Below are positions 36,982-54,895 of a stretch of DNA of 64,000 nucleotides, piece after piece. Below the pieces are notes generated by a model. It searched no databases, was not told the DNA's origin, and worked only from the letters and a program-made list of their open reading frames with translations. Made by a program: the position numbers and the translations under genes. Numbering within the stretch: position 1 is the first letter of the stretch; each line of letters starts with the position of its first letter. The DNA is from Mucilaginibacter sp. SJ (lineage in GTDB: Bacteria > Bacteroidota > Bacteroidia > Sphingobacteriales > Sphingobacteriaceae): assembly GCF_028993635.1 (NCBI RefSeq), contig NZ_CP118631.1:496001-560000 (forward strand). The letters are read 5' to 3'.

Positions 36982-37005
36982 TAGTCTGTTTTAATACTGA
37001 ATTCA

Positions 37006-37022
37006 GTGGAGCCGGAGGGATT
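37006..37022. repeat. attR: 17-bp repeat at the tmRNA 3' end
   Basis: GTGGAGCCGGAGGGATT, identical to 10199-10215. It covers the discriminator, the acceptor 3' strand and part of the T arm of the tmRNA, a standard integration target that keeps the RNA gene whole. Confidence 0.85.
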
Positions 37023-37372
37023 CGAACCCTCGTCCAAACATGGTATAAGGTAAGCTTTCTACATGCTTAGCTTCTGTTTAATTGTAGGGAAGGGGAAGGT
37101 CAGCCGCTTACCTGTACCGTCTTCCTTAGGTGCTTTATCTTACCCGCTTATCACACCCTAAGCAGGCCAGTTTCATCTTTCGATGCCCCGATTGCCGATC
37201 CGGTGAAACGGAAAATCGGCGGGACAAAAGCTATGCTAATTCTAAATTAGGCAGCTAAGGCGTAGTTATTTTCGCCATTTGTAAGTTTGAGCGTTCAGAT
37301 TAAAGCGCTAATTCACCCAACGCGCTGCATGCTTACCTACTTATCTCCATCCTGTCAATTCCGGTCGACCCC
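37007..37372 (-). ncRNA. ssrA: tmRNA (ssrA)
   Basis: About 366 nt. The 5' end GGGGTCG pairs with 3' CGGCTCC to form the acceptor stem with one G-U pair; the T arm GGGTTCGAATCCC is intact and CCA is not encoded. The tag frame ends GENNYALAA followed by TAA (stop at 37249-37247 on the minus strand), with the YALAA degradation signal seen in Bacteroidota. The RNA rescues stalled ribosomes with SmpB. Its 3' end is the integration site of the element to its left. Confidence 0.95.
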
Positions 37373-48708: not shown

Positions 48709-49803
48709 TTAACTCAAACGTGCGTTTCTATTCCTGAGCCAATGATCAGCCAATACGAGGGCAGCCATGGCTTCAACAATAGGTACAGCGCGCGGAACCA
48801 CACAAGGATCGTGACGGCCTTTGCCCGATATTTCAGCAGCATTGCCCTGGCTGTCGATGGTTGCCTGGTTTTTCATGATGGTGGCTACGGGTTTAAAGGC
48901 TACCTTAAATTCGATAGGCATACCATTGCTGATGCCTCCCTGGATCCCGCCCGAAAAATTGGTAATGGTTTGTATATCACCCAGGTGCGATTTTACAAAG
49001 ATATCGTTATGCTCAGACCCACGCATTTCGCTGCCTTCAAAGCCCGAGCCAAACTCAAAGCCATGAACAGCGTTGATGCTTAACATTGCTTTGCCTAAAT
49101 CGGCATGCAGTTTATCAAACACAGGTTCGCCAAGGCCAACGGGGCAGTTTTTTATATAGCAGCTGATCTTGCCGCCAACGGTATCGCCATCCTTACGTAC
49201 GCTGTCAATAAATTCGATCATCTCTTCCGCAGTGGCAGGGTCGGCACAACGTACAATATTTTTTTCGCGTTCTGCAATAAACTCAATCGGATCGCTGATA
49301 AATACGTTAGGCGCATTGATTTTACCTACACTGCTTACATGGGCAACAATTTCTATACCCTGTGTTTTAAGCAGCAGTTTAGCTAAAGCGCCGGCAGCAA
49401 CGCGGGCTGCGGTTTCGCGGGCAGATGAGCGGCCGCCGCCGCGATGGTCACGGATGCCATATTTAGTTTGATAGGTATAATCGGCATGCGACGGACGATA
49501 TACATCCACGTTATGGCTGTAATCTTTTGAACGCTGATCTTCATTGGGGATCAGCATAGCTATAGGTGTACCAGTGGTTTTACCTTCAAACGTGCCCGAA
49601 AGGATCTTTACAGTGTCGCTCTCTTTGCGTTGGGTGGTGATCTTTGACTGGCCGGGTTTGCGTTTATCCAGTTCGCCCTGGATATAATCAAGATCAACCT
49701 GTAAACCGGCCGGGCATCCGTCAATAATTACACCGATGGCCTCGCCATGTGATTCGCCAAAAGTAGTTATCCTGAATAATTGCCCGAATGAATTGCCTGC
49801 CAT
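48709..49803 (-). CDS. aroC: Chorismate synthase
   Basis: A 364-residue chorismate synthase: [19 protein letters not shown] at the start, [33 protein letters not shown], and a [14 protein letters not shown]/substrate region, ending [17 protein letters not shown]. It converts EPSP to chorismate with reduced FMN, the last common step of aromatic synthesis. It is the last gene of the minus-strand operon pheA, DAHP synthase-chorismate mutase, aroA, aroC. The 260-base gap before it holds two palindromic repeats. Confidence 0.96.
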
Positions 49804-50038: not shown

Positions 50039-50073
50039 GCTTTGGGATTTCGGCCTTCAGCTTTAAGCCTCAA
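50039..50073. repeat. Degenerate heptamer array at the aroA 3' end
   Basis: GCTTTGG GATTTCG GCCTTCA GCTTTAA GCCTCAA. It crosses the aroA stop (50063), so the last three codons of aroA are part of the array. Confidence 0.72.
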
Positions 50074-51379
50074 CTTCTTCCACTTCAAACCCCTGCTTTT
50101 CCAGGTCATTCCAGAAAGCGGGATATGATTTATCAACCACCGGACCGTTCTCAAATTCCATTTGTGGAAGAACGAGGGCCAGCGGCGCGAAGGCCATTGC
50201 CATTCGGTGGTCATGATAAGTATTGATGAAGATACCATCAGGGGTAAATTTCCCGCTGCAATCAAGCGTGTAAACTTCATCTTTTTCAATCAGCTTAACA
50301 CCCATTTTGCCAAGCTCTGTTTGCAGGGCCAGGATGCGGTCGGTTTCTTTGATCTTTAAAGTTTCCAGGCCGGTAAAAGATGCTTCATGATTAAGTGCCG
50401 CGCAAACAACAATTAGTGTTTGTGCCAGATCGGGGCATTCTTTCAGGTCAAACTCACGGCGGGAGATAGGTTTGTTCTCTTTTTTAAGATGAACGCCACC
50501 ATCCCTGAACTGCGAAGTAATACCAAAGTTAGCCATGATTTCGGTGATTACACTATCGCCCTGCAAACTGTAAGGGGTAAGGCCTGTTAAAAACAATTCA
50601 GCCTCATCTGCAAGCGCAGCAATAGCATACCAGTATGAGGCGGCACTCCAGTCCGGTTCAACGTACAGTGATGTTGTTGTAAATTCCTGGTTTGTAATTG
50701 CGATAACATTACCTTCCCACATGTGCTTGATACCAGAAGTTTCCAGCATGGCCAGGGTCATTTCAACATAAGGGCGCGAGGTTAATTCGCCTTCAATATG
50801 CAATTCCAAACCCAAAGGTAATGCAGGAGCGATGAGTAACAATGCGGTAATGTATTGGCTACTGATGTTACCCTTTATACTAATCTTATCGGTTTGCTGC
50901 CTGAAGCCTCCTTTTAATTTGATGGGAGGATAGCCATCATTCTCTTCATAATCAATATTGGCACCCAGCACGCGCAATGCATCAACCAGTATACCTATTG
51001 GCCGTTCCTTCATGCGTTTACTGCCGGTTAAGATCACTTCATCTTCCTGTATAGCATAGTAAGCTGTCAAAAAGCGCATTGCTGTGCCCGCCGGACCGAT
51101 GTCTACGATTTCGGATTTGCAATTTTCGATTTCGGAATTATCAGGAGAAGCGTTTCCTGCCAGAACCTCCTGGCTCTTGGCTCTTGACTGTTGGTTCTCC
51201 CTTAAAATACCTGCCAGTAAAACAGCGTCAGCAGCGTCAGATACGTTTTCAACCCTCACTTTACCTTTGCTTAACGCTTCGATGATCAGGGCGCGGTTAC
51301 ACTCACTTTTTGAACCGGTGAGGTTAACCGTGCCGTTAATGAACTTATTATTTCTTTTCAGAATGATGTTATGCATCAT
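50063..51379 (-). CDS. aroA: 3-phosphoshikimate 1-carboxyvinyltransferase (EPSP synthase)
   Basis: A 438-residue EPSP synthase with GSKSECNRALIIEAL, the DIGPAGTAMRFLTAY motif, GSKRMKERPIGILVD, ISSQYITALLLIAP and KETDRILAL. It joins shikimate-3-phosphate with phosphoenolpyruvate. Residues about 60-92, just before DIGPAGTA, are an unusual hydrophilic insertion (QQSRAKSQEVLAG...); the encoding DNA is two exact 7-bp-period arrays (51107-51141, 51167-51201). It lies 8 bases downstream of the DAHP synthase gene in the attenuated operon. Confidence 0.95.
   Translation of the reverse strand: MMHNIILKRNNKFINGTVNLTGSKSECNRALIIEALSKGKVRVENVSDAADAVLLAGILRENQQSRAKSQEVLAGNASPDNSEIENCKSEIVDIGPAGTAMRFLTAYYAIQEDEVILTGSKRMKERPIGILVDALRVLGANIDYEENDGYPPIKLKGGFRQQTDKISIKGNISSQYITALLLIAPALPLGLELHIEGELTSRPYVEMTLAMLETSGIKHMWEGNVIAITNQEFTTTSLYVEPDWSAASYWYAIAALADEAELFLTGLTPYSLQGDSVITEIMANFGITSQFRDGGVHLKKENKPISRREFDLKECPDLAQTLIVVCAALNHEASFTGLETLKIKETDRILALQTELGKMGVKLIEKDEVYTLDCSGKFTPDGIFINTYHDHRMAMAFAPLALVLPQMEFENGPVVDKSYPAFWNDLEKQGFEVEEVEA
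51107..51141. repeat. Degenerate heptamer array inside aroA
   Basis: GATTTCG GATTTGC AATTTTC GATTTCG GAATTAT. Encodes aroA residues about 80-91 on the minus strand. Confidence 0.75.
51167..51201. repeat. Second degenerate heptamer array inside aroA
   Basis: CTCCTGG CTCTTGG CTCTTGA CTGTTGG TTCTCCC. Encodes aroA residues about 60-71; with the array at 51107 it makes up the insertion. Confidence 0.75.
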
Positions 51380-51387
51380 TAAAAATA

Positions 51388-52518
51388 TTAGGCGTGTGTA
51401 AGTTTTTCTGCTGCCTGGCCCTGAGCGGCGTCGGCGTTCATTACTTCTGTTTGCCTGCGGATAGATTCGTTGTGAACTAATTCAAGCAATTTTTCAGTAA
51501 ACTCGGCGCTTAATTTTAATGCTTTACCGTAAGTTGTACGTTTTTGAAGGATTTCATCCCAGCGGCCAACTTGTAAAATGGTAATGTTGTTATCTTTTTT
51601 GTACTGGCCGATTTTTTCTGCAATCTGCATACGCTCAGCAATTTTCTGGATTAACAGGTCGTCGATCTTGTCGATCTGGTTACGTAGTTCAGCCAGTTTA
51701 TCGTTTACTTCAGAATTTCTAACTTCCGCTTTACGCAAAGTTAAGTGGTCGATGATATCGGCAAGAGCTGCAGGAGTAACCTGTTGTTTAGCATCTGTCC
51801 AGGCTACGCTTGGATCGATATGTGATTCGATCATTAAGCCTTGCATATCAAGGTCTAAAGCTTTTTGTGAAACATAACCGATCAGATCGCGATTACCTGA
51901 AATATGGCTCGGGTCATTAATAAGAGGTAATTCAGGAGCCAGGGTTTTTAAGGCGATAGCAACATCCCACATCGGTTCATTACGGAAAGCAGATTTTTCG
52001 TAAGATGAGAAACCGCGGTGGATCGCAGCTAATTTAGTAATACCTGCATTATTGATACGCTCTAAAGCGCCGACCCATAATGAAAGATCAGGATTTACCG
52101 GGTTTTTAACCATTACAGGCACATCAACACCTTTTAAAGCATCGGCGATTTCCTGAACTGTGAATGGATTGGCAGTTGAACGTGCACCTACCCAAAGGAT
52201 ATCAACACCGGCTTTTAAAGCTTCTTCAACGTGTTTTGCTGTAGCAACCTCAACAGCTGTTGGCAAGCCTGTTTCTTCTTTAGCGCGTTTTAACCATTCC
52301 AAACCAATGCTGCCAATACCTTCAAACTCACCCGGGCGTGTACGTGGTTTCCAGATACCTGCACGCAAAGCTGAGATTTTACCTGTTTGGGCTAATAAAT
52401 GAGCTGTGGCTACTAATTGTTCCTCTGTTTCAGCGCTGCAAGGGCCTGAAATAACCAAGGGCTCCTTACCTGTTTTAATCCAGGTGTTAAGCGGCTGTAT
52501 GTTTAAATTTAGTTTCAT
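51388..52518 (-). CDS. Bifunctional DAHP synthase / chorismate mutase (AroQ type)
   Basis: A 376-residue fusion. Residues 1-255 are a type I-beta (KDO8P-like) DAHP synthase: VISGPCSAETEEQ, ALRAGIWKPRTRPGEFEG, ILWVGARSTANPFTVQE, NDPSHISGNRDL. Residues about 270-360 are an AroQ chorismate mutase helix bundle (KLAELRNQIDKIDDLLIQKIAERM). It both begins the pathway and commits chorismate to prephenate. In Bacteroidota the mutase often regulates the synthase domain. It lies 93 bases downstream of pheA and under the same attenuator. Confidence 0.95.
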   Translation of the reverse strand: MKLNLNIQPLNTWIKTGKEPLVISGPCSAETEEQLVATAHLLAQTGKISALRAGIWKPRTRPGEFEGIGSIGLEWLKRAKEETGLPTAVEVATAKHVEEALKAGVDILWVGARSTANPFTVQEIADALKGVDVPVMVKNPVNPDLSLWVGALERINNAGITKLAAIHRGFSSYEKSAFRNEPMWDVAIALKTLAPELPLINDPSHISGNRDLIGYVSQKALDLDMQGLMIESHIDPSVAWTDAKQQVTPAALADIIDHLTLRKAEVRNSEVNDKLAELRNQIDKIDDLLIQKIAERMQIAEKIGQYKKDNNITILQVGRWDEILQKRTTYGKALKLSAEFTEKLLELVHNESIRRQTEVMNADAAQGQAAEKLTHA

Positions 52519-52611: not shown

Positions 52612-53520
52612 TTATACATTACGCCTGATATTGATATACTTGCGGATGCTCCGTTCGGCCCGGCGAGGTTTTGGGCTCACCGCATGCTCATCATCGTGCC
52701 TTTCGTACTCGCCAAGGATATTGAAGTTATGGGTGTACTTAAGGATTTGCCTTATGGAAGCGTCATATTGTTTTTGCTCTTCCCATTCTATATCTACATA
52801 AAAATTGTACTCGTTGCGCTTGCCCAAAATCGGCATCGACTGAATTTTGCTCATATTTACACCTTCTTCGGCAAAAATATTAAGCACTTTAGCCAACGCA
52901 CCAACTTTGTTACTCACCTGGAAGCATAAAGAAGCTTTGTTAGCCGGTTTCTTCTCGATATTATCATGATGGGTAAGGATCAGAAAACGGGTAAAGTTTC
53001 TTTTGTTCGATTCGATGCGGCGTTCCAAAACATCCAGACCGTAAAGCTTGGCGGCTAAGGAGTTTGCAATAGCAACCGTATCTGTTAGCTGTTCATCCCT
53101 GATGCGTTTAGCACAGGCTGCAGTATCACTGCTCTCCACAATTTTAAGGTGCGGATATTCGTCAAAAAAATCAACACACTGGCGTAAGGCAATGGGGTGG
53201 GAGGTTACATATTTGATATCCTCGAATTTTACCCCGGGTAAAGCCATCAGGTGCAGTTGAATGGGCAGGTAAATTTCACCAACTACGGGAAAGCCATAAT
53301 CAAGCAGCAAGGTATAGTTTGGCAGGATGCTGCCGGCGATGCTGTTTTCGATAGCCATTACCACATAATCGGCCTCACGGTTTTTTAAACTCTCAAATGT
53401 TTGTTTGAAAGAGTTGCATTCAATGGTCTCGGTGTTTTCGCCGAAGTATTTCAATGCAGCTTCTTCGTGAAAAGAGGCCCGGATACCCTGAATTGCGACT
53501 TTTGGTTGTTCTATTTTCAT
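52612..53520 (-). CDS. pheA: Prephenate dehydratase
   Basis: A 302-residue protein. Residues 1-180 are the prephenate dehydratase domain (IQGIRASFHEEAA, the SNxxxA-like IENSIAGSI, and the NFTRFLIL Thr-Arg-Phe motif). Residues about 195-275 are an ACT domain (SLCFQVSNKVGALAKVLNIF) for phenylalanine feedback. It turns prephenate into phenylpyruvate. It is the first gene of the operon, directly downstream of the Phe/Tyr leader peptide and its terminator. The basic tail (PKPRRAERSIRKYINIRR) is longer than usual. Confidence 0.95.
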   Translation of the reverse strand: MKIEQPKVAIQGIRASFHEEAALKYFGENTETIECNSFKQTFESLKNREADYVVMAIENSIAGSILPNYTLLLDYGFPVVGEIYLPIQLHLMALPGVKFEDIKYVTSHPIALRQCVDFFDEYPHLKIVESSDTAACAKRIRDEQLTDTVAIANSLAAKLYGLDVLERRIESNKRNFTRFLILTHHDNIEKKPANKASLCFQVSNKVGALAKVLNIFAEEGVNMSKIQSMPILGKRNEYNFYVDIEWEEQKQYDASIRQILKYTHNFNILGEYERHDDEHAVSPKPRRAERSIRKYINIRRNV

Positions 53521-53535
53521 AAACCTGCTTAAAGC

Positions 53536-53567
53536 AAAAAGTCCCGGCTGGTAGGCCGGGACTTTTT
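53536..53567 (-). terminator. Attenuator terminator of the aromatic operon
   Basis: On the minus strand AAAAAGTCCCGGC-ctacca-GCCGGGACTTTTT, a 13-bp perfect stem with a T-run, placed between the leader peptide and pheA. Its 5' arm AGTCCCGGC can instead pair with GCCGGGACT at the end of the leader peptide gene (53599-53607), giving a 9-bp antiterminator. Confidence 0.88.
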
Positions 53568-53596
53568 AGTTTCTTTATATGTTTGTTTTGTACATA

Positions 53597-53662
53597 TTAG
53601 TCCCGGCTCTCACTGGTAAAGTAAAAGTAGTAGCCAAAGAAGTATGCACCTGTTAATTTCAT
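53597..53662 (-). CDS. Phe/Tyr-rich leader peptide of the pheA operon
   Basis: A 21-residue peptide, ATG at 53662 and TAA at 53599-53597. Residues 7-15 read YFFGYYFYF: four Phe and four Tyr among nine residues, the hallmark of an attenuation leader. The last codons (Ser-Arg-Asp-stop) overlap GCCGGGACT, which can pair with the terminator's 5' arm. A ribosome that finishes the peptide would cover this segment and let the terminator form; a ribosome stalled on Phe or Tyr codons would free it to act as antiterminator. This is a complete classical attenuator layout. Confidence 0.9.
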   Translation of the reverse strand: MKLTGAYFFGYYFYFTSESRD

Positions 53663-53684
53663 TTGTCGTTTTTTTATTACGACG

Positions 53685-53714
53685 TAAATGTACGGTAAAA
53701 AAAGAGTTTGTCAA
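53685..53714 (-). promoter_or_regulatory. Promoter of the leader peptide-pheA operon
   Basis: On the minus strand TTG (53714-53712), 19 bases, then TACATTTA (53692-53685), one base off the TAnnTTTG consensus. Transcription would begin about 15-20 bases before the leader ATG. Confidence 0.7.
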
Positions 53715-53968: not shown

Positions 53969-54895
53969 CTAAGCGGCTGTTTCGTGTTTTTTATGCGTCT
54001 CTTCCATCGCTTTATATTCGCGTTGCAATATGCGCGCGGTCTGGGTACTGCCATCATGGCTCCATCCCGGAGGATTTAAGAGATAGCCGATCTTTGATTT
54101 AAGATCGGGAGCATTTTTTACATCATGCAATAAAGCCTTCCATTCATGGAATAGAACATTCACAGGCCCCATATCTTCAGGCTGTTTGGTTAAGCCATAT
54201 TTAACCGGCTCTGGTAAATCTTCATCGCGGAAAGTACCAAATATTCTGTCCCAGATAATCAATACCATGCCCATGTTTTTATCCAGGTAAGGAATGTTTG
54301 ATGCATGGTGTACACGGTGATGGGCAGGTGTCACAAAGATCCATCCGTACCATTTTGGCAAGGGAATTTTGTACTGCGTATGCACGAGGTTGCCGTATAG
54401 CTGTGTAATTAAATAAGCATACAAGATATCTAAAGCAGTAAAGCCCATTACCGCCAATGGTAAATAAAAGAACACCCTGTAAAGGGGTTCAAAAACTGTA
54501 GATCTAAAACCTGTTGTAAAATTAAAATGCTCGGACGAGTGATGGGTAACATGCATCGCCCAAAACATTCGGCAGTAGTGCCCGGTGTAATGCAAAACCC
54601 AATATAAAAAATCCTGCACTACGACAAGGGTAAACCAATACAGAAATATATTATGAATCTGGAATAACCTAAAATGCAGGTATGTATAATCTAAAATAAA
54701 AAAAGTAAAAAACTTAACGCAAAGGTTGATTACAACAGCCAGGGCAGTAAGGTAGATATTGGTCAGCGTATCGCGGGTTTCATAGTACTTGCGATCTTCC
54801 CAATAGCTCAGAGCCATTTCAACAAGCGTTAAAATAACCAATAAGCCCATTAAAACAAGGGCCGCCTGATTTCGCGGATCTAAATGCTGAAGCAT
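53969..54895 (-). CDS. Sterol desaturase/fatty acid hydroxylase family protein
   Basis: A 308-residue membrane di-iron oxygenase. His boxes: HYTGHYCRMFWAMHVTHHSSEH and, later, THAHHRVHHA-type TPAHHRVHHAS. Four hydrophobic segments span 10-125. Related enzymes hydroxylate or desaturate sterols, carotenoids or fatty acids; in Bacteroidota most are uncharacterised lipid-modifying enzymes. It starts 1 base after the aroB stop, so it is the last gene of the S4-aroB operon. Confidence 0.87.
   Translation of the reverse strand: MLQHLDPRNQAALVLMGLLVILTLVEMALSYWEDRKYYETRDTLTNIYLTALAVVINLCVKFFTFFILDYTYLHFRLFQIHNIFLYWFTLVVVQDFLYWVLHYTGHYCRMFWAMHVTHHSSEHFNFTTGFRSTVFEPLYRVFFYLPLAVMGFTALDILYAYLITQLYGNLVHTQYKIPLPKWYGWIFVTPAHHRVHHASNIPYLDKNMGMVLIIWDRIFGTFRDEDLPEPVKYGLTKQPEDMGPVNVLFHEWKALLHDVKNAPDLKSKIGYLLNPPGWSHDGSTQTARILQREYKAMEETHKKHETAA

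Follow-up and report, generated by a model that had tools for sequence, protein, structure and literature searches.

What does the short region in front of pheA do in the soil bacterium Mucilaginibacter sp. SJ, and to which signal would it answer? The window analysed here is a 64,000-nucleotide stretch (bases 496001-560000) of a genome assembled as a 6.82-Mb single contig. Its PheA and the PheA of Mucilaginibacter gossypii Gh-67 (locus L103) are 100% identical, and on sequence grounds the genome is close to M. gossypii. An earlier note on this DNA had placed a promoter, a terminator and a 9-bp alternative pairing before pheA, all of which are present within 53714-53536 (Table 1), the promoter as a promoter-like pair, together with a leader peptide of 21 residues, rich in aromatics. 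The leader was found as MKLTGAYFFGYYFYFTSESRD, with 8 aromatic residues within residues 7-15.

We consider it very probable, at about 0.9, that the pheA leader works as a ribosome-mediated transcription attenuator of the trpL/pheL type, which would sense charged tRNA-Phe and tRNA-Tyr. As far as the DNA allows it to be judged, every feature of this type that is testable here was found, save a clearly exclusive 1:2 helix. Observations made on the sequence itself, taken up below in turn, are the parts of the device and how well they are conserved, the coevolving alternative pairings, the ruler geometry and the association with pheA.

Parts of the leader and the proposed switch

Table 1. Coordinates of the pheA leader, of the genes that follow it and of two further leaders of the same genome.
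Feature	Position	Strand	Detail
Promoter-like pair	TTGACA 53714-53709; TACATT 53692-53687	minus	16-nt spacer
Leader ORF MKLTGAYFFGYYFYFTSESRD	ATG 53662 to TAA 53597	minus	21 codons + TAA
Control codons 7-15	53618-53644	minus	TAC TTC TTT GGC TAC TAC TTT TAC TTT; 4 Tyr + 4 Phe
Candidate outer helix (1:2), 5′ strand GTGCATA	53643-53649	minus	fold; covariation of the family-wide helix
Candidate outer helix (1:2), 3′ strand TATGTAC	53590-53596	minus	directly 3′ of the stop codon
Coding-region hairpin, 5′ strand CTTTTAC	53621-53627	minus	codons 12-14; covariation, RNAalifold consensus
Coding-region hairpin, 3′ strand GTGAGAG	53607-53613	minus	codons 17-19; covariation, RNAalifold consensus
Antiterminator strand GCCGGGACT	53607-53599	minus	codons 19-21 + first stop base
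Terminator 5′ arm AGTCCCGGC	53563-53555	minus	also antiterminator partner
Intrinsic terminator hairpin AAAAAGTCCCGGCCTACCAGCCGGGACTTTTT	53567-53536	minus	13-14 pairs, T run; predicted from sequence
pheA, prephenate dehydratase with ACT domain	52612-53520	minus	Pfam PDT + ACT over cut-off
DAHP synthase fused to chorismate mutase	51388-52518	minus	Pfam DAHP_synth_1 + CM_2 over cut-off
aroA, EPSP synthase	50063-51379	minus	
aroC, chorismate synthase	48709-49803	minus	
Thr/Ile attenuator before thrA-like gene	G000:C1:3778394 onwards (L224, from base 195)		
Trp leader before trpE-like gene	G000:C1:3408700-3409500 (L225)	minus	

The two uses of the terminator 5′ arm are evident from its letters: the antiterminator strand GCCGGGACT can pair with AGTCCCGGC over 9 bp, and the same letters as in GCCGGGACT occur in part of the terminator 3′ arm. 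The hairpin ends 15 bases before the start of pheA (53520). Folding of the 151-nt leader gave −38.6 kcal/mol (z −4.74), and none of 200 shuffles was as low. The coding-region hairpin found across the family is close to a hairpin in the fold of the window leader; this hairpin, which lies inside the aromatic codons, and the candidate outer helix were absent from the earlier reading. A single promoter-like site was found in the leader region, for which shuffles expect 2.3, so the match in the window is by itself no proof of a promoter. Across relatives, 59 of 63 genus and family leaders have the pattern TTG-N18-24-TAnnTTT in the 75 nt before them, against 1.9 of 63 with shuffled bases. Downstream, the cluster runs pheA, DAHP synthase/chorismate mutase, aroA and aroC on one strand, and aroA and aroC presumably share the pheA transcript.

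We infer the start of transcription, the stalling of the ribosome, the direction of the response and the role of the 1:2 helix as follows. RNA polymerase would start near 53680 and make the leader RNA with a ribosome close behind. When Phe- or Tyr-tRNA is scarce, the ribosome would stall within codons 7-15 with its footprint ending at about the start of GCCGGGACT, which would leave this strand free to pair with the emerging AGTCCCGGC; no terminator would then form and pheA, the DAHP synthase/chorismate mutase gene, aroA and aroC would be transcribed. With Phe and Tyr ample, the ribosome would reach the stop codon and cover GCCGGGACT, the terminator would form and transcription would end. The coding-region hairpin, perhaps along with the outer helix, probably either fixes the base state while no ribosome is present, pauses the polymerase until one arrives, or does both. 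Phe and Tyr as joint signals are suggested by the codon content of the leader.

Conservation and coevolution across pheA loci

The earlier note had proposed to look for conservation and covariation of the leader in relatives, and the search bore this out: the leader is kept and its pairings coevolve. We take the family sampled to be Sphingobacteriaceae and the class Bacteroidia, and a pheA/PDT match was obtained in 183 of 201 family genomes and 43 of 148 class genomes. Under the strict rule applied earlier, which asks for five or more F/Y/W among 8 residues and a terminator no more than 130 nt away, 76 of the 102 regions upstream of pheA have the element; the antisense strands of these regions pass in 4 of 102 cases and their dinucleotide shuffles in 2 of 2040. 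By group, the rule is passed by 23/25 genus, 36/40 family and 17/37 class loci, and E. coli pheL, used as positive control, passes it as well. The folding rule behind our curated counts was written after the strict rule had missed leaders with mismatched stems. Of the 25 genus loci, 23 pass it; the other two, L009 and L011, miss it because their T runs have four Ts, yet they show the leader. With this rule, all 40 family loci from other genera, selected from 148 genomes with a match so as to span 21 genera, have an aromatic leader with a terminator hairpin behind it. Among class loci outside the family, 26 of 37 have the leader by the same rule, one class genome with a partial PDT match (G324) having been excluded before this count; no recognisable leader was found in the 11 others (L026, L071, L073, L074, L076, L077, L082, L090, L092, L099 and L100).

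Outside the class, one of 20 pheA loci passes the strict rule, the one rule used there, and 19 fail. These 20 were drawn from 95 genomes with a match; one of them, L206, comprises 272 bases, and where PDT is part of a long fused frame, as in L193 and L207, the 700 bases read may not extend to the gene start. Given the 11 of 37 class loci and 19 of 20 outside-class loci that fail, pheA can do without a leader.

Named relatives are represented by the best 80 of 224 pheA loci, of which 69 are titled Mucilaginibacter and 11 are Bacteroidetes-bacterium MAGs. Leader and terminator lie within 400 nt of pheA in 77 of these best 80. In L128 and L131, also among the best 80, the contig end falls inside the leader, and in L154 leader and terminator stand at −595, where a small ORF, with MKKTEQIIRDYVNAYNNF at its start, separates the terminator from pheA. 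The leader of L018 is found at −219 with extra DNA between attenuator and pheA, leader and terminator being retained. Across genera and families the order of the aromatic residues varies while their composition is kept (YFYGYFYFW, YWFFGFFYF, FFFYFYN and YFFFFFYYFYF are examples). Trp is present in many related leaders, and the window leader has no Trp codon.

Coevolution of the alternative pairing was assessed with the tail that follows the last aromatic codon and the 5′ arm of the terminator picked independently of each other. For the 26 class loci outside the family, the tail-arm duplex averages −15.2 kcal/mol, against −10.2 kcal/mol for permuted combinations (SD 0.52; 0/5000). With one locus per family (16 loci) the values are −15.9 and −11.1 kcal/mol (0/5000), and within the family, whose 22 genera are more alike, −17.6 and −16.7 kcal/mol (14/5000). 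Taken individually, the 2:3 duplex is better than that of shuffled tails (reached by at most 2 of 200) in 29 of 37 representative loci, and in the remaining 8 more than 2 of 200 shuffled tails reach it. Antiterminator pairs elsewhere read GGAGGCGGGA/TCCCGCCTCC (L072), TGAAGCGGGA/TCCCGCTTCA (L081) and ACGGGAGG/CCTCCCGT (L087).

In the family alignment, 94.2% of the cells of the 2:3 helix are paired, against 17-59% when one strand is slid, and for the terminator the corresponding figures are 96.9% and 36-68%. The core of the 2:3 helix shows very little variation within the family, and pairs changed on both sides number 3 in this helix and 4 in the terminator; the 3 double-changed 2:3 pairs are reached by 9 of 500 shuffles, and one slid version has 5. 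On these alignments and duplexes, we read the antiterminator pairing as mutually exclusive with the terminator and as conserved by covariation.

The spacing of the parts is kept as well. In 37 loci, each standing for one genus or family, the distance from the last aromatic codon to the start of the antiterminator is 8.7 ± 2.1 nt (range 5-14), against 19.7 ± 12.6 nt for shuffled tails on the same ruler; measured from the stop codon, the start has an SD of 9.5. The antiterminator strand had been described as lying within the last codons of the leader, which is true in the window; however, because the distance to the last aromatic codon is kept and the position of the stop is not, its being coded is incidental, and 12 of 89 leaders have their stop codon 5′ of the antiterminator. 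According to a passage of PMC4833913, a ribosome covers about 12 nt past the codon being read, so that a ribosome held in the aromatic run would leave the strand largely free and one that has gone past the run would cover it. The control codons thus appear to be positioned such that a stalled ribosome exposes the antiterminator strand and a finished one covers it.

A covariance model (R1) was built from 65 leaders and run on 151 family genomes. It matches the leader in all 135 genomes having pheA, in 133 of them at 55 bits or more; the other two, from genus g24, score 48.4 and 42.7 bits and are told from second-rank matches, which reach 51.7 bits among the matches listed, by position only. The 16 family genomes without a pheA match have best R1 E-values from 5.1e-5 (44.2 bits) to 0.007. 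The position check covered 116 of the 135 genomes, the other 19 not being comparable, and in 116 of 116 genomes with listed coordinates the match is immediately upstream of pheA and co-directional with it; 75 of these were held out. Five of six inspected second-rank matches in genus g30 (of 10 listed) are Thr/Ile leaders with an aspartokinase-like gene next to them (L209-L212 and L214; L213 is not one), and five from other genera (L215-L219) look like ordinary terminators or show nothing evident.

The pheA leader matches no Rfam family over its cut-off: in the window, tmRNA and tRNA were all that exceeded it. Membership of a known family (riboswitch, T-box, Thr_leader, Bacteroid-trp and others) was rejected, since nothing in the leader reaches the gathering cut-off, nor does anything in eight related loci. 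By bits, the top match of the leader is Thr_leader (RF00506), with 26.7 against a gathering score of 55; that family has the same gross layout, with Thr/Ile there and Phe/Tyr here. Sub-threshold matches to BTnc231, RsaJ, SNORA19 and others were taken as chance. A second genomic copy of the same leader core was likewise dismissed, the exact pattern occurring once in the genome. R1 could serve for annotating the element, to which no Rfam family was found to correspond. The tmRNA gene of the window is an ordinary one with the tag GENNYALAA (37004-37372, minus strand).

Pairings inside the aromatic codons and alternative readings

Codon usage within the leader is unusually uniform. Among 77 Mucilaginibacter-clade leaders, 74 have 21 residues, and in these codons 12, 13 and 14 are TAC, TTT and TAC in 74/74 each, Ser17 is AGT in 74/74, and codon 15 is TTT in 72 of the 73 that have Phe there; at 27 conserved Phe/Tyr columns of pheA itself, the commonest codon is used in 51-95% of cases (80 loci). 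Such invariance of synonymous third positions indicates an RNA pairing, and RNAalifold, unprompted, pairs codons 12-14 with codons 17-19. What is new here is this predicted and conserved hairpin within the aromatic codons, which can explain the invariant synonymous codons. Written as CTTTTAC/GTRAGAG, it shows compensatory changes, including one pair that goes from C-G to U-A in 8 sequences.

In the family, a candidate outer helix of the strands GCATAT and ATATGC encloses the leader ORF. Its outermost pair is G-C in 24 sequences, G-U in 16, A-U in 15 and unpaired in 10, and the helix is missing from the RNAalifold consensus. Considered jointly, the coding-region hairpin and the outer helix pair in 93.6% of cells, against 23-49% when slid; their covariation score is above all 500 shuffles, and their count of further pair types is reached by 21 of 500. 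They hold 6 double-changed pairs, which two slid versions equal with fewer such cells. Because related sequences can beat such shuffles without any structure, covariation of the 1:2 helix is taken as support and not as proof. The coding-region hairpin overlaps the antiterminator by at most 1 base and, in the fold, could stack on it; with so small an overlap it is neither the textbook protector nor a clearly exclusive 1:2 helix.

Polymerase pause sites have the consensus G-10 Y-1 G+1. A TG that fits it is found 11 nt after the CC of the antiterminator, past the stop codon, in 52 of 65 family leaders, and in 2 more by eye. The position of the hairpin before this TG may recall a pause hairpin, and the outer helix would constrain the same bases. 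One could picture a three-state device that goes beyond a two-way switch, consisting of the codon-embedded hairpin and the outer helix closing the ORF, a tentative idea to which we give rather less than even odds. In such a device the hairpin, which with a GG/CC extension counted in would sit 11 nt before the TG, would act as a built-in pause signal for RNA polymerase, keeping transcription waiting until the first ribosome arrives. These bacteria seldom use Shine-Dalgarno initiation, and a built-in pause, if true, would be evidence for transcription-translation coupling despite this rarity.

The aromatic run itself could be understood as an arrest sequence, with the leader peptide halting the ribosome on a free aromatic metabolite in the manner of TnaC or SecM. 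In the 74 Mucilaginibacter-clade leaders of 21 residues, there is indeed almost no variation at residues 10-15 (G Y/F Y F Y F); beyond the genus, however, it is the composition and not the order of the aromatics that survives, and the invariance within the genus extends to the synonymous third positions discussed above, pointing to RNA pairing, so we find peptide arrest very improbable. The leader might also mainly report that translation slows in general, or how much of all aromatics, Trp among them, is available, which would suit both the Trp found in many related leaders and the common-pathway genes of the cluster. The lack of a Trp codon in the window leader and the separate Trp leader before a trpE-like gene in the same genome argue for Phe and Tyr specifically, and the broader signal is in our view quite unlikely.

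Other roles have to be weighed for the hairpin too. If it acted by hiding the start of pheA, control would fall on translation and not on transcription, and the median distance of 17 nt from hairpin end to pheA start (a rough measure, 89 loci) would be in keeping with that; the T runs are no evidence on this point, being required by the search. This reading fits poorly with the hairpins 73-183 nt upstream of pheA in L018, L051, L088, L091 and L094, and with L154, which keeps leader and terminator despite a whole small ORF before pheA, and we hold translational control to be highly doubtful. Scarcely credible, to our judgement, is a plain terminator of the upstream FA_hydroxylase gene, pheA being transcribed without any leader. 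That gene (53969-54895) does share the strand, and the palindrome can terminate both ways, but a terminator of this sort would not account for alternative pairings that coevolve, for promoter-like pairs before the leaders, or for an element that adjoins pheA in 116 of 116 checked family genomes; moreover, the gap of only 15 bases leaves no room for a promoter between hairpin and pheA. Ribosome-mediated transcription attenuation is the reading that we retain.

Leaders elsewhere in the genome and known systems

The same genome has a thrA-like gene, with a homoserine-dehydrogenase domain and beginning like an aspartokinase, that is preceded by the leader MTIYNTISTIIITTGINLGGR and a terminator. 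Its 9-bp antiterminator (−16.8 kcal/mol) is unrelated in sequence and follows the same layout, and the leader scores 37.7 bits with Rfam Thr_leader, under the cut-off of 55. A Trp-rich leader, MIKNTHKNSWWHQLNWQPACAF, and an intrinsic terminator precede the trpE-like gene, where no match to Bacteroid-trp (RF01692) was returned at E up to 0.1. The presence of such leaders before pheA, thrA and trpE in one genome suggests attenuation as a main route of amino-acid control. Leader switches also make transcription-translation coupling in Bacteroidota testable, because the ribosome must follow the polymerase closely. A His-rich leader, MNGIALHHLHLHHHHVVIS, stands before hisG (L188, G000:C1:6534900, minus strand), with its His codons inside a self-complementary stretch, ATCACCACCATGTGGTGAT; no intrinsic terminator was recognised before hisG by the rule used, so its mechanism may differ.

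As to Tyr supply, one gene of the genome (L186) codes for a biopterin-dependent aromatic amino acid hydroxylase of 593 aa (PRK14056, 795 bits, cut-off 346). The best TyrA candidate is divergent (L184, 419 aa), with 27.9 bits for Pfam PDH_N (cut-off 26.5) and scores far below the NCBIfam cut-off. In Echinicola vietnamensis, another member of Bacteroidota, formation of Tyr from Phe by a hydroxylase is proposed beside the usual route in a passage of PMC7311316. By analogy, the hydroxylase of the window genome may make Tyr from Phe and, if so, pheA would feed both amino acids.

Attenuation, which the earlier note held to be less studied in this phylum, is not unknown there, with the Bacteroid-trp RNA and leaders of Flavobacterium psychrophilum already published. 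Attenuators in Bacteroidetes/Chlorobi were reportedly included in the survey of Vitreschak et al. in 2004. A statement of 2010, as worded in its passage, had leader-peptide systems known only in Proteobacteria and Actinobacteria (PMC2965389). Bacteroid-trp (Rfam RF01692; Weinberg et al. 2010, PMC2864571) is presented in the cited passage as a leader-type RNA of the same phylum before trp genes, and a passage of PMC6414381 likens it to the E. coli trp leader; it differs from the pheA leader in the genes it precedes, and RF01692 gives no match to the latter at E up to 1. For F. psychrophilum, leader-peptide attenuation before amino-acid operons was deduced from transcript maps and structure (PMC9723704). 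Phylum and kind of mechanism are the same as here, and the passage concerned neither mentions a leader of pheA nor shows an alignment.

Short ORFs have also been noted near genes of the shikimate pathway. Passages on uORFC-13-1, before aroF of Acholeplasma, propose a terminator and attenuation (PMC8632094), and two further uORF candidates with Phe and Tyr codons stand before shikimate-pathway genes (PMC6429828). What they share with the pheA leader is a short ORF that has Phe (and Tyr) codons and precedes such genes; the difference is the host, Acholeplasma for uORFC-13-1, and the uORF passages of both papers do not include a Bacteroidota pheA. No description of a Bacteroidota pheA leader turned up in searches of open-licence papers.

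E. coli pheL-pheA shares with our locus the aromatic leader and the terminator before pheA, and its antiterminator begins 7 nt past the last aromatic codon on the ruler used above. It differs in having Phe only and an antiterminator that comes after the stop codon, whereas the window leader has Phe and Tyr in equal number, its antiterminator in the last codons, no Rfam match and common-pathway genes following. Control of this kind has so far mostly been inferred piecemeal in the phylum, and the present set catalogues one leader attenuator across a whole family, with statistical support. Seen against these systems, the pheA leader belongs to a classical type of control device, well conserved here, and is not a new kind.
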